From assembly GCF_038396675.1 (NCBI RefSeq), contig NC_088926.1, positions 16,409,501 to 16,473,500 of the forward strand: a DNA stretch of 64,000 nt, written 5' to 3'. The DNA comes from Hydra vulgaris (lineage: Eukaryota; Cnidaria; Hydrozoa; Anthoathecata; Hydridae). Position 1 is the stretch's first letter, and the number at the start of each line of letters is the position of its first letter. Below, one piece after another: positions 13,359 through 53,755 of this stretch. A program made the translations under genes and the position numbers. The notes beneath the pieces were generated by a model. The model did no database searches. It was given only the letters and a program-made list of their open reading frames with translations, and had not been told where the DNA came from.

Positions 13359-15126
13359 CTAAACTTTTTCACACAATTTTCTAGGATGTAAAGTAAAAAA
13401 TAGTTTTGAGACTTGTTTATAATCAACAATTTCATTGTAGTGGATATTCATGATGGCTAATGAACCAAGTCGATCTGCAGTCTTACTGGCTCTCAACCAT
13501 TTTCGTAATCTTCGCCTTGCTGAAAAGCTGCGTTCATATTCTGTGGACGTTACGGGTAGTGTACATCCGATCTTTAGATGCTCAAAGAGATTAGGACATT
13601 GATTTTCATTGCAGGTTTTAATAGCTTTAGCTAGAATATTAGGCCTATCTTCAGGTTTAATAACAGACCATTTTTTTTTCCAAAACATGAATTCTTGATC
13701 TACAGCTTCTGAGTTTGGTAGATCACTTTTATACATTTCAACTAACAGCTGGAAAGCAGTTATCTCTTCACTGCAAATTATTGAGGGAACCAAGCATAAA
13801 ACCTTAGCAGGAATGTAACTTGTCTTTTGGAATCGTATTTTGATTTCTGAAATGATGGTGCATTTGTTGGTTCTACAAATAATTTACTTGCCATAAGAGT
13901 AGCTTGTTGGCAAATTGTGTAAGTTTCTTTTTCAACATTTTTGTTGATAGTTCAAATTGTCGATTGTTTCTTGAATGTTGATACACAATATCAGTTGTGC
14001 GCCCTTGTAACCTCTCTGTTATATACGACAACGGGTGAAGTAAGCGGTACAAAGTTATAATTCCAATTATGAATTTAAACTTAATGAGTGCATTAAGGAG
14101 TGAGTTGGCCTCTCTTTTTCCTTGTGCGTTCCAATCCGTACTAAACGCTATATTGAACTGTTCTATATTAGAGTGTATTCCTAAAATAATCTCTAATGCC
14201 TCTGCCATATATGGTATAGCTAAATAAAAGTGTTCATATGTGGCATCTCTTTCTGACCATCTTGCACATCTCTATCAAAATCTTTTTCCTTTCAGTTGAT
14301 TTACAACGGATCTCTGCAACATGCTCCAGCAAGCGCTCTCTTTTCGGAGAGGTATTGAAATAAATGGATATATTTCTGTATACCTCCAAAATGTTATCAA
14401 TGATTGGTATTTTTGATGTTGCAGTAGTTGATAAATTCAAACTATGTGAGCTACAATGTGAGCTACAATGTGTTACAATTACAATGTGTTACAATTGCAA
14501 TGTGTTACAATTGAAATGTATGTGAGCTACAATGTGTCACAATTGCAATGTGTTACAATTGAAATGTATGTGAGCTACAATGTGTTACAATTGCTTTTGG
14601 TGATCCTTATAGCAACTATATTTTAATCCTTATTAAAATATAGCTGGCAACACCATTTAAAGTACTATTGCTTTGTAATGGAATGGTTTATCTTGGATCT
14701 TCAAAACGACAACAAATGCCATTAGCTTGTTTGATAGCTTCTTTACGGTATCTATTGCTTATATGATGTGTTTTTTTTTTCTCTAAAACATTGTGCCATT
14801 CCTTATATCCACGGTTAACAAAAACTCCTAAAGTTTTTTTTTGGGTCGTTTTAAAAATAAAGTGCAGTATATGCAGTAGACTGCGTCTTCACTTTTGCGG
14901 TAGACAAATCCATTTTGTAAATATTTTTTTACAAGCGTGTTTGCAACCATGTTTTAATGTTTTGGGAAATTATAAAGTGTATCTTCTGTTTTAAGTTATT
15001 GGTAAACATTTTGTATATTTCATGTGGTGATAATTCTTGATTTCCGCGAAAGAGTTCGTCAATATCATATCGTTTTTCTTCTTCTTTAAAATCACATTCT
15101 TTTAAATTTGTTTGGTCTATTTGCAT
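13359..15126 (-). pseudogene. hAT transposase (TTF-finger/ZMYM type), broken
   Basis: The N-terminal piece (15126-14929) is acidic and lysine-rich and includes IDELFRGNQELSPHEIYKMF. It is followed by a damaged TTF-type segment (GYKEWHNVLEKKK). Central pieces (14440-14234, 14208-13873) match the hAT core, with STDWNAQGKREANSLL. The C-terminal piece (13793-13359) is the dimerisation region: LPVTSTEYERSFSARRRL, then LGSLAIMNIHYN, the most conserved stretch of hAT proteins. Stops and frame changes separate the pieces. A decayed minisatellite (14441-14592) lies inside the coding region. Confidence 0.85.
14441..14592. repeat. Minisatellite within the hAT coding region
   Basis: Alternating GTGAGCTACAAT and GTGTTACAATTG motifs recur about nine times with slight changes. 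They expanded inside the transposase sequence and contribute to its disruption. Confidence 0.85.
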
Positions 15127-17059: not shown

Positions 17060-20000
17060 ATGGAAATGAAAACTCTTAAAAATAGAGATTTTGAAAATCT
17101 AAACTTTGACCCATTTCGGGAGGTTATTGTTAATAACTTATCTAATGAAAACATAAATATTTTTCAAGAAACTCAAATGAACTTAATCGACACACCGTAT
17201 TTTAGTCCTTTCGACTTCAAAGTATCAAAATATCTTAATTCATTTTCTATATTACACGTAAACATTAGAAGCATGCAGCAAAATATTGAGAAGTTGAAAT
17301 AATTTTTAAGTATTTTAAATTACGCGTTCGATGTCATAGCTCTTACAGAGACTTGGCATGATACAGAAAGTTCTGTTGAATTGAATTCAATCTATAGTTT
17401 GCAATCTTATAAATTAGTTAGCCAACCAAGAGCCAGCGGGAAAAAAGGTGGAGGATTAGGGTTTATGTCTCCGATAAATATTTGTATAAAATTAAAAAAG
17501 TACAATGTTTCTCTAATTCTAACTACGAAAGTCTTTTCATCGAAATTATAAACAAAAAATATGGTAATATTTTAGCAGGATGTATTTATCGTCCGCCAAA
17601 TGGTAAAATTAAATCATTTGAAAATTTTATGAAAAATCATAAAAATTAATATTGAAAATAAAAACCTATATATTATTGGGGACATAAACATTGATGCTCT
17701 GACTTATCAAAAATTTCCTAAAATAAAATCCTTTTATGAAATGCTATTTAAACTCAACGTCTTATCAATAATTAATAAACCCACACGTGTTACAAAAAAC
17801 TCAGCAACTGCGATTGACAATATCTTCATTAATAACCACCTAAAATCAACATTTGAAACTGGAATTTTCCTTACAGATATTAGTGATCATTTTCCTATCT
17901 TCTTAAAAGTAAATTATTTAAAAACTGCGTCTGATAATCAACTATTAATTTGAAAAAACGCAACATTAAATTATGTAATATTAATAAACTAACGTGTAGA
18001 TTAAAACAAGAACCATGGAGTAATGTATATAAATGCAATGATACTAACGAAGCTTTTAATAACTTTTAATAGCTTTTTAAGTACATTATTAAAACACTTC
18101 AATGAAACCTGTCCATATGTGGATATTAAAGTTAAGGCAAAAGCTATTGCTAACCCATGGATGACCAAATCGCTATTAAAATGCTCAAAAAAAAAGCAAA
18201 AACTATATAACAAATTTCTAAAAAATAAAAACACAAAAAATGAACTAAATTACAAAAAATATAAATACTTTTACCAATCACTAATCAAAAACGCAAAAAA
18301 AAGTTATTTCAGTAGGCTAATTTCGAATTGCCAATTTAATAGTAAAAAAACATGGTCCATAATTAATAACATCATCGGAAAAGACAAAAATATTACTCCT
18401 TCACTGCCTAAGAGAATTAATATTAACAACACCGATATATTCTGTCAAAACCGTATCTCAAAAGAGTTCAACAAGTATTTCACAAATGTTGGACCTAAAC
18501 TTGCCAACAAAATATTGGCAACATCAGAATCATTTAAAAACTATCTAAAACCCTCAAATAACGAAATATTAAATGATAATGAATTGAGTTATAAAGAATT
18601 CGAAACAGCATACTCTTCTTTAAAAAAAAAAAAATCCCCAGGGTATGATGAAACCTCTTGTAATATAGTAATTTTTAACAAAACTAGTTTAGGCAAACCT
18701 TTGTTTCATATACTGAAACTTTCATTAAAGTTCGGTATTTTCCCTGATGCTCTTAAAATAGCTAAAATAATCCCAATTTATAAATGCAACGATCATTCGG
18801 ACATTAAAAACTATAGACCTATATCATTACTTTCTGTATTCTCAAAATTGTTTGAACGCGTAATTTATAATAGAATATTTGAGTATTTCACTATAAACAG
18901 TTTGTTTTACCCAAAGCAATTCAGGTTCCAGAAAAATCACTCAACTGAACATGCAATTATTGAACTAGTCAACCATATAACTAATGGTTTTAACAATAAC
19001 AAATATACTTTAGGAATAAATATAAAAAATAGGAATAGATCTATCTAAAGCATTCGATACAGTCTACCATTGCATTTTCTTAGAAAAAATTAAGCATTAC
19101 GGTATAAATAATACAACATATTCCTGGATAAAAAGTTATCTTACAGATAGAAAGCAATATGTTCATAATGAACAATCTGGAACATTAAATGTCGTATGCG
19201 GAGTTCCGCAGGGATCAATCCTTGGTCCGCTCCTATTCCTTATTTATGTTAATGACTTTTGTAATGCATCATTAAAACTAAATTCAATAATATTAAACAT
19301 CTCTATTCTGATATGAATATAGAATTAAATAAAGTTAATATTTGGTTTAGGGCAAACAAACTGTCACTTAATGTTGAGAAAACAAATTATACTCTATTTC
19401 ATAAAAAAAAACAAGAATTAAACATTCCACTTAAGTTGCCTGAACTTTATTTAAATGATAAATTAATTAAAAAACAAACGAGTATAAAGTTCCTAGGAAT
19501 TCTTGTCGATGAAAGTTTATCCTGGCTTCCCCAGATAATATATATTCAATCAAAAATCGCCAGAACTATTGGCGTAATGTATCGAGTCCGCCCATACGTG
19601 AATATTTAAAGTCTCAAATTGATATATTTTGGGCTGATTCACTGTTTCATTAATAAAACTAATATATCATGGGCAAGTACGCATAAAACAAAACTTGAAA
19701 AAATTTATAAGCTACAAAAACACGCTTGCCGAATCATATAGTCTAAATTTAAACGTGAACATGCAAAACCTCTAATGAAAGATATGAAAATGATGGATAT
19801 ATTTGAAATAAATATCTATCAGCATCTAATTTTTATGTATAGATACTACAACAATCTTTTACCTGTAAATTTTAATAATAAGTTCGAAATAAAACTAAAT
19901 GATAAGTATAAACGAAGATCAAATAGAAACATTAACTATAAATTGCCTCGGAAATGTAACAAACTCTCAAAATATTGTGTATCTTATCGAGGACCTAAAT

Positions 20001-22228: not shown

Positions 22229-22552
22229 TTATTTAATGGTAGAGAATTACTTTAAGAAAATAACAAAAAACATTATTTATTAATACTACTTATAAAACAG
22301 GTATAGTTAAGGCAGACTGATACAATTTCTTACTTTTCTAATTACTAACAGTATAACAACTAATAATATTTTTTCTAACTCCACTACATATATACTATAA
22401 AAAAAACTTTTAGTAGATGGTAAAATAGCATGTGATAAATCAACACATTTGAATAATTTGAAATAAATAACAATAACTTACATTGGTTTATAGTATATTG
22501 ATTAAAAAGACTTTATTTCAGAATTTAGTCTCATAAGGGTTTTAAACCACTC

Positions 22553-22591
22553 CACAGTTGGGCAGAATTGCTTCAAAATTGGACATTTGAC
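22553..22591 (+). repeat. Left terminal inverted repeat of the RAG1-like element
   Basis: It starts CACAGTT, one base from the V(D)J heptamer CACAGTG. Position 31 begins ACATTTGAC, a poor nonamer match. Confidence 0.8.
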
Positions 22592-23202
22592 GAATATGAA
22601 ATAAGAAATGAAATAAATTTTCATTTCTTATTATGAAATTTTTTTTAGTAGTAATGGATAAAAGAGTCTCTGGCCCATCTTATCCACGTCTTTTTTTTTA
22701 GGTTTGGACTGACCTTTAACCCTGTGAAACCCATATTTTAGCCATATTCTTTTGTCTAAAAAATGACTCGCTTGCGCGAGTTAAAAGTACCACTTTGTTT
22801 ATATAGTGCTTATGAGAAGTTTGTTAAAAGTTTTTTTAGGTATTCTTTAATTTTAGGCTATCTTTTGGTAATAACAAAATATTATTTAAGTGCTTGCACT
22901 ATATATTATTATGCCCTTACAAAAATAGCGTTTTAAATATTTCATTTTTATGTAATTCTTTTAAACAATGCACTTTTTGTTTAGGTATTCACCTAGATAC
23001 ACCTTAGATTTTTTTTTTTTATGGAATGGCTCATGATTATAGATTGTTAAACTTTTTTTTTTGGTGCACATTTTGAGCTTTTTTTGTGTAATAGAGGAGA
23101 TGTGTCATTTATATCAGTAGAAACCAGGAAACGAAACCAGGTCATTAACGCATTAAATTAATGACGTTTTTTTCCATTGCATTTTTGAGCATGCTTTGGT
23201 AA

Positions 23203-25100
23203 TTGTTTTTCAGGTTTATCTTAAAACTTTTTTATATGATTTCGGTTTATATTTATAGTAATAACATTATGTTTTTTAAAAGAAGTAAACTTGTGGCTAT
23301 TATGAGAGATTCTGGGTTTATTAAAATGAACGAACAATTTCATTTTTTGAATGAAGAAATAAAAAATCTTACAGAATGCGAAGAAACCCATTTAAATGCG
23401 TTAAGTCAGTCACTTATTTTTATAGTTAAGTCAGTCTTTATTTATGTCACAGTATAAATCTCGTTGGATAAAATCACACAGGATATATAAAGTTTTTCAA
23501 AAAAACAAAAAGTTTTGGTTAAACAGTTCCATTTGTTTAAATCAGCATACAGTGAGCGAAACTTGCTGCAACGAAAAGAAGTATAATACTTCAAATTTTT
23601 GTGAACGAACGATCCGAAGAAAATCAAAAGTTTTAAGCGAGACTCATTCTCAATCTGTTTTGACTTGTGCTACTCAAATAAGTTTAAGAGCTGAAGGAAT
23701 GTTACATGCATCAAAACTATTGAAAGAAGCTACAGAAAGTCCCAAACGTGCTAATAAATAAAGAGAAGCATATAAGAAAATACTTGAACCACAAAAACAA
23801 AAAGTTTTTTGGTGGAAGCAAAACTATCTAGATTTCAATATGATGTTTTAAGGAAAATTGTGCCTGAAAGGTTTCCCTCATACAAAAAGGTTCAAGCAGC
23901 CAAGAAATTGTGTTATCCTATTGATATTCATGTAACAGAAACCTATGCTTTGATTTCTTTGCAATCTTTACTGAAGCACACAATACAGCTCTTACTTTTA
24001 GCTGTGGAGCCTGTTATTAGGACTCTTCATAATGAAGAAATAAATCAGCTTCAATTAATTTTGAAATGGGGGTTTGATGGCTCTTCAGGCCATAGTTTCT
24101 ATAAACAATCATTTTGTGATTCCAAAGCCAGCAATTCAGCTGTTTTTCTAACATGCATCGTCCCTCTTCGTCTTGTTTCTGGTGGAAAAATTATTTGGTC
24201 GAATCCACACCCTGCATCCACAAAATATTGTAGGCTTTTAAAAATTGATTTAATAAAAGAGTCTTAGATAGAATCAATTGCTGAGAAGAATAGAGTAGAT
24301 GAGCAAATAAAAAGAATTGTTAAGACAAAGTGCCTAATCGAAGAAAGACAAGCAGAAGTATTTCACACTTTAATTTTTTGTGTGGTAGATGGCAAAGTAT
24401 GCTCTGACAGAAACTACTTCTACCCAAAGATGTTTTATATGTGGTGCAACCTCAAAGCAATTTAATGATATTGAGCAAATGGTTCAGAGGAGTATCAAAA
24501 CTGAAAACTTGGGATTTGGCTTATCTGTGCTACATGGGTGGATTAGAATGTTCGAATGCATTTTGCACTGGGCTTATAAACTACCAATCAAGAAGTGGCA
24601 AGCTCATAAAAATGATAAAGAAATTGTTGCAAACAATAAAGCTCGAATTCAGAAAGAATTTCGAGAACAGTGTGGTTTGATTATTGATAAATCAAAACCA
24701 GGATTTAGCAATACGAATGATGGAAATACAGCTAGACGCTTCTTGGCCAAGGCAAAAATTTCAGCTGCTATAACAAATATAGATATAGTTTTGATTAAAA
24801 AAATGCATACAATTATGATAGCAGTAGCGAGTGGATATGATATTGATGTAAATAAATTTAGATTATTTGCTCTTGACACAGCAAGATACTTTGTTGAAGT
24901 ATCCATGGTACAGCATGCCCCCTACATTGCATAAATACTTTATACATGGTCCTGAAATTATATCATCTGCATTGTTGCCAATAGGACAACTGACTGAGGA
25001 AGCACAGGAGGCTTGCAATAAAGACTTTAAAAGGTATAGAGAGAATTACTCTAGAAAATGTAGTCGAAAGGACACAAATGCTGATATCTTTAACTTTTGA
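23203..25100 (+). pseudogene. RAG1-like transposase core, broken into frames
   Basis: Catalytic and zinc-binding elements appear in RAG1 order across shifted frames: KWGFDGSSGHS (first aspartate, 24076-24078), FCVVDGKVC (second aspartate, 24388-24390), QRCFICGATS (CxxC, from 24431), LHKYFIHGPEII (H-x4-H, 24930-24947, close to RAG1 FHKTLAHVPEII) and LTEEAQEACNKDFKRYR (glutamate, 24996-25010, matching the SEGNESGNKLFRRFR region). The N-terminal part has KSRWIKSHRIYKVF and begins near 23272 (MFFKRSKLV) or 23203. Breaks: a stop and frame change near 23455, a stop at 23759, a stop at 24265, a shift near 24395, and a shift before 24920. A (GAT)n tract at 25098-25164 follows and could have encoded an acidic tail. 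It is probably a dead RAG1-like transposase; no RAG2-like gene is seen. Confidence 0.85.
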
Positions 25101-25132
<32 letters not shown>

Positions 25133-25552
25133 ATGATGACGATGATGATGGTGATGATGATGTTTTTTGCTAATTACTTTTGACCATTGATTGTTTTATT
25201 TACGGAAATTTACATTTATAAAAGGTTTTTTTTTAATATAAAAATAATCGAAGTTTTTCGAGTTTTCGAGTAATTTTTTTTTCGAGTTGCTTTTTACATT
25301 ATATTTGAATTGCTATAATTTATTTGATTGAATCGAGTAGAATACGTTTTATTAGTATTATTTATTGAAGTTTCTCATTTTCTTTTTCTTACTATTACTT
25401 TCCGGTTTTTTCACTCGAAATTACTCGAAAATACATTAAAAACGTCTGATATTAGTAAATAGTTATTTAAAAATTTATGGACTAATTCTTCTTAAGTCTA
25501 ACAAGACTGCCCTTAAAAAGATTATTAAACTTAAAAATCGAAAACTACAAAA

Positions 25553-25591
25553 AATTTTTGTCCAGTTTTAAAGCTGTTCTGCCCAACGGTG
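25553..25591 (-). repeat. Right terminal inverted repeat, 23-RSS-like
   Basis: Read inward on the minus strand: heptamer-like CACCGTT, 23 intervening bases, then ACAAAAATT, which matches 7 of 9 bases of the consensus nonamer ACAAAAACC. This is the layout of a 23-spacer recombination signal. Confidence 0.75.
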
Positions 25592-25596
25592 CACTC

Positions 25597-36381: not shown

Positions 36382-53755
<17,374 letters not shown>

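Follow-up and report, generated by a model that had tools for sequence, protein, structure and literature searches.

The 3,039-bp element at positions 22553-25591 of the window, by which we mean the whole 64,000-nucleotide stretch of Hydra vulgaris DNA analysed here, is almost certainly a dead copy of an autonomous Transib DNA transposon. Transib is the cut-and-paste family from which RAG1, the antibody-shuffling enzyme of vertebrates, is thought to derive. Our results demonstrate that the element has a core homologous to a known Transib transposase, the DDE triad together with the CxxC and HxxxxH motifs in the Transib order, CAC...GTG inverted ends with an RSS-like heptamer in the family form, a 5-bp target-site duplication, and a single gene. 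The features of the element are the following:

22548-22552, no strand: left 5-bp target-site duplication CACTC, read directly; present singly (as CGCTT) in five copies of the surrounding repeat
22553-22582, plus strand: left terminal inverted repeat; the family form starts CACAGTG (the RSS heptamer), here CACAGTT
23203-25100, plus strand: transposase pseudogene, from the frame list and homology, in six stop-to-stop frames (23203-23457, 23426-23761, 23788-24267, 24268-24465, 24389-24934 and 24852-25100)
24076-24078, plus strand: first catalytic aspartate (KWGFDG), by alignment
24388-24390, plus strand: second catalytic aspartate (VVDGKV), by alignment
24431-24442, plus strand: zinc ligands CxxC (CFIC), by alignment
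24930-24947, plus strand: zinc ligands H-x4-H (HKYFIH), by alignment
25008-25010, plus strand: catalytic glutamate (QEACNK), by alignment
25099-25164, plus strand: GAT/GAC tract, an aspartate tail in the siblings; its frame differs from that of the transposase end, and the segment before it is missing
25562-25591, minus strand: right terminal inverted repeat, 25/30 identical to the left
25592-25596, no strand: right 5-bp target-site duplication CACTC, read directly

The element starts with CACAGTTGGG at 22553 and ends with CAACGGTG at 25591, exactly as delimited in the initial annotation, which had also reported CAC termini and the CACTC duplication, both of them present. The heptamers of the window copy itself read CACAGTT and CACCGTT, where the family form is CACAGTG. 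A pattern written from the ends of the family, with up to three mismatches allowed, matched twice in the window and not once in 100 shuffles of it; across the genome the pattern gave 228 matches (122 forward and 106 reverse), against none for a control in which it was reversed. A chance origin of the landmarks and ends is ruled out by these controls together with the homology to a Transib chain.

To characterize the duplication, the window and 20 genome regions with relatives were compared, and 10 of these 21 copies, in which both ends were in register, were counted; nine regions lacked an end, and L048 and L050, each with a small indel at an end and a plausible 5-bp repeat, were left out. Eight short elements, recognized as facing pairs of terminal inverted repeats less than 1.5 kb apart and chosen by eye among the matches listed, were added, giving 18 elements. 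Per-base identity of the flanks reached 0.77 for a length of 5; lengths of 3, 4 and 6-10 gave 0.14-0.24, and the value of 0.58 at length 2 arises because the target tends to start and finish with CG. The 5-bp repeat is exact in 6 of the 18 elements, including the window copy, and agreement is lowest in L079 (1/5), followed by L065 and L071 (2/5) and L042 and L073 (3/5). The target is CGNCG-like, with 69% G+C against 26% in the window. Mismatches between paired duplications number 21 over the 18 elements, 11 of the CG to TG/CA kind and 10 of other kinds; changes of the former kind are the pattern expected of methylated CpG decay.

The flanks of the window copy, joined without the element, match elsewhere in the genome, for the most part piecewise and with about 70-85% identity in the matched pieces; they make up one degraded copy of a repeat that is dispersed there. 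In the alignment, five other copies of this host repeat run through the junction and carry the 5-bp site once (CGCTT there, CACTC in the window). The element therefore landed in a repeat older than itself and duplicated 5 bp of it. The proposed 5-bp duplications are thus borne out both by the family-wide peak at length 5 among the 18 elements and by the empty sites in the five repeat copies.

The length of the duplication also bears on whether the element could belong to Chapaev or to another CACTA-related (CMC) group. CACTA elements duplicate 3 bp and Chapaev elements 4 bp, against the 5 bp seen here in 18 elements and at the empty sites. Homology to the Transib chain moreover extends over the full core, and a Pfam search of two N-terminal pieces returned no RING or other zinc domain; a Chapa domain likewise found no match in these pieces, in a library that may not include a Chapa model. 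What the CMC groups and Transib have in common, according to excerpts of PMC12730594, are C(2)C and H(3-4)H motifs, CA..TG termini, and duplications of 2-5 bp, and we consider a CMC origin very improbable.

The transposase of this Transib copy is broken, and its five landmarks are present in order, spread over three frames by the frameshifts. Codon positions were read by hand from the sequence and its frames, and in a joint alignment the landmarks share columns with their counterparts in the PDB chain 6pqn, in RAG1L, and in RAG1. We take 6pqn, whose PDB entry is named only 'DNA-mediated transposase', to be HzTransib of Helicoverpa zea, with five further PDB entries for the same transposase, and we likewise take 6b40 to be lancelet RAG1L and 3jbw to be zebrafish RAG1. 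The designation of the first aspartate (24076-24078) as catalytic is presumed from work on RAG1 and Transib. Both the second and the third glutamate of the LTEEAxEACNK stretch align with RAG1 glutamates, and the third is presumably the catalytic one. The initial annotation had stated that all RAG1 landmarks occur in order, and the five are confirmed by codon and by alignment with two small corrections; at the stretch that had been compared, the RAG1 chain 3jbw reads LHKTLAHVPEIV, not FHKTLAHVPEII.

Relative to its siblings, the window copy changes frame twice before 23788, meets a stop at 24265-24267, and shifts frame again near 24389 and near 24900, and it has lost the segment before the GAT tract. 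A domesticated host gene derived from Transib would hardly be compatible with a frame broken in several places, with terminal inverted repeats and target-site duplication still in place, or with a multicopy family; beyond the conserved motifs nothing speaks for such a gene, and the chance of it is vanishingly small.

The 181-aa frame of the window (24389-24934) matched 6pqn with E = 2e-32, its only PDB match up to E = 10, and a sibling frame of 467 aa between stops (P0002, from L049) matched the same chain with E = 1.7e-108 over residues 4-457 (454 residues). For P0002, the E-values were 0.022 with RAG1L (6b40) and 0.25 with RAG1 (3jbw), and because of this difference the element is assigned to Transib proper and not to the RAG1L-RAG2L elements. 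A single window piece out of six (0.0014) and P0002 (0.0023) reached the Pfam RAG1 family (PF12940), neither passing its curated cut-off, and the six pieces and P0002 brought up no Pfam family named for Transib. In a tree of seven rows, a limited choice short of a full phylogeny, 6pqn groups with the window copy, its sibling and another Hydra family on one branch (100/99), and RAG1 with RAG1L on a separate one (100/99); the fork joining 6pqn to the window family has values of 81/79.

The element might alternatively be what is left of a RAG1L-RAG2L (RAGL/TransibSU) transposon after loss of its RAG2-like gene. Excerpts of PMC7204232 give RAGL elements a DDE site, two zinc domains, heptamer-like starts of the ends, and 5-bp duplications, all of which are common to both kinds of element. 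For the sibling frame, however, the E-values with the Transib chain and with RAG1L lie more than 100 orders of magnitude apart, and the window family is not grouped with RAG1 in the seven-row tree. A stretch of about 30 residues between CxxC and the next conserved helix, found in RAG1, RAG1L, and the Hydra element L059 described below, is missing in the window family, as it is in 6pqn. Excerpts of PMC9435367 describe this stretch as the RAG2-binding alpha11-alpha12 region, lost in the Subgroup II Transibs, which are also marked by a type II C-terminal tail. A second gene was not found among the plus-strand frames of the element, inspected by eye, and its longest minus-strand frame has 90 aa; together with the Pfam search of the six pieces, this leaves a single gene, as in Transib, for which PMC4411706 reports no recognizable domain other than the transposase core. 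Pfam RAG2 and RAG2_PHD had no matches in the genome, an absence that weighs little since the control genomes were silent as well. A RAGL remnant is in our judgement highly unlikely.

The sequence, the 5-bp duplications, and the family's CACAGTG ends therefore all show the name Transib to be right. The further description of a 'RAG1 core' is justified at the level of the superfamily and not beyond it, given the E-values with RAG1L and RAG1 and the missing RAG2-binding segment, and the linked RAG2-like gene that had been suggested as a check was not seen in the element, nor in the genome by the search just described. With HzTransib, the element shares homology over the whole core, the D-D-CxxC-HxxxxH-E order, and the gap at the RAG2-binding segment of RAG1; it differs in host, in that the window copy is dead, and in the aspartate tract that precedes a VFCY-like end in the window family. 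With RAG1L and RAG1, it shares the DDE and zinc landmarks in order as well as, going by excerpts of PMC7204232, the 5-bp duplication and heptamer-like ends, whereas the E-values of 0.022 and 0.25, the absent RAG2-binding segment, and the lack of a RAG2 partner in the element set it apart. With the Hydra Transibs already published (HvuTransib-7_HMp and -9_HMp in PMC9435367, and CMC-Transib in PMC12220107), it shares genus and superfamily, as far as their published descriptions go.

A DNA search of the genome yielded at least 115 matching pieces, with the best 40 of 1,836 candidates scored. No intact transposase was present in the 21 copies read (the window and 20 sibling regions), the longest transposase frame being that of 467 aa, and the proposed search for intact copies thus came back empty for the 20 fetched regions. 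A protein search gave 150 matches among the best 150 of 4,456 candidates, and from the 14th listed row these come mostly from related families with 44-54% identity, in many of which the open frames are long. In a related family with about 44% identity, one fetched copy is open for 663 aa from stop to stop, and the longest frame among the matches listed has 716 aa, an artefact excluded. The 663-aa protein matched 6pqn with E = 5.1e-119 and RAG1L with 6.6e-7; most of the 17 such loci fetched (L022-L038) are disrupted or truncated by the locus boundary. The excluded candidate, a fusion-gene-like frame of 2016 aa round a Transib match (C7:13825309), comes from a stretch reading N. The expectation that relatives could be active is supported for the related family, which has long open frames, and also by PMC12220107, where CMC-Transib is one of 14 TE families listed as putatively active in Hydra AEP, outside the most expressed fifth; it is not supported for the window family, in which no fetched copy is intact.

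By the known biochemistry of the family, the transposase would have paired two CACAGTG-type ends, and nick-hairpin cutting at the flanks would have freed the element. The DDE site would then have joined the freed ends to target strands 5 bp apart in a CGNCG-like target, leaving the 5-bp repeat, and the copy would have decayed after insertion. In its active period the same enzyme would probably have mobilised short elements with matching ends as well. Such elements of 0.55-1.5 kb with the ends of the family were seen at eight places among the matches listed (for example, C14:23631672-23632221 and C4:38379883-38380468); their flanks agree at 1-5 of 5 positions and are similar in most of the eight, suggesting that they are probably non-autonomous passengers of this transposase.

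A search of the genome with Pfam RAG1, with 68 of 130 candidates scored, gave at least 24 matches, all over the curated cut-off and modest (best 34 bits). One of them lies in L059:

L059:580-2787 (C7:15155679-15157886), minus strand: open 736-aa stop-to-stop frame (P0003) with a Pfam RAG1 match

P0003 matched 6pqn with E = 7.6e-26, RAG1L with 1.9e-12, and RAG1 with 5.1e-8, and the sequence of L059 thus stands closer to RAG1L than that of the window family does. L059 has the ends CACAGTGGGCC of the CACAGTG type, flanked by CGTGG on both sides. A second open frame of 736 aa is 99% identical, and there are at least 84 matches in all, with the best 61 of 3,533 candidates scored. L059 is probably another Transib family; an assignment as Chapaev-like is probably wrong, since the CGTGG duplication and the CACAGTG ends speak for Transib. 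L059 retains the long stretch after CxxC, the segment called RAG2-binding in excerpts of PMC9435367, and it may, by a guess based on how names are ordered in a legend there, be Hydra Transib-9. The RAG1L tail motif Cx2Cx3GHx4C, given in excerpts of PMC7204232, was not seen by eye in the C-terminus of P0003.

A GAT/GAC tract follows the core in 19 of the 21 copies of the window family and is lacking in L047 and L055. The tracts encode from 4 (L054) to 79 (L046) aspartates, with the longest pure run ranging from 3 to 69. VFCY or a close variant follows the tract in 11 of the 21 copies, the window copy included, and the eight tract-bearing copies without such an end show decay or a frame change; upstream of the tract, LLKPPDIHIN or a near form occurs in many copies. 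The related family has no aspartate run, and an acidic tail with a DFCY end is found in 5 of its 17 loci, those whose end was read. Judged from these sequences, the acidic tail would be older than the window family, and the run an expanded repeat. According to PMC7204232, the C-terminal tail of RAG1 in vertebrates carries acidic residues, and PMC8355894 reports that removal of the acidic hinge of RAG2 raised transposition. By analogy with the RAG1 tail and the RAG2 hinge, the acidic tail might be a functional, length-tunable regulator of transposition, which we consider unlikely; drift of tract length in dead copies is the likelier reading, and the spread of lengths is well explained by it because dead copies let repeats drift. 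A narrow literature search, judged in part by the titles listed, found no published mention of a Transib aspartate tail.

The rest of the window contains a 332-aa open frame at 1313-2308 with a short-chain dehydrogenase domain (E = 8.1e-28) and two probable transposon remnants, one with a hAT dimerisation-domain match at 13359-13883 on the minus strand (8.4e-07) and one with a reverse-transcriptase match at 18005-19048 on the plus strand (1.9e-07). A minisatellite at 44579-48021, with 92 copies of a 37-bp unit and 98% matches, is on its own the source of open stretches of up to 1,114 aa in more than one reading frame. No tRNA gene and no Rfam match at the gathering score was found in the window.

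Our findings show that a reading of landmarks from the letters alone found a real Transib, whose RSS-like ends and 5-bp duplication agree with the accepted view that V(D)J recombination descends from elements of this kind. That picture is unchanged, as Transib in Hydra is already published and the window copy is dead. The element is a decayed member of a kind known from this genus, and an ordinary find for that reason. The suggestion that its relatives would inform RAG evolution is accordingly weak, Hydra Transibs having already been analysed alongside RAG1 in PMC9435367, as its excerpts indicate. More useful leads in the same genome are the aspartate tail and L059, with its segment resembling the RAG2 interface and its two near-identical open copies.
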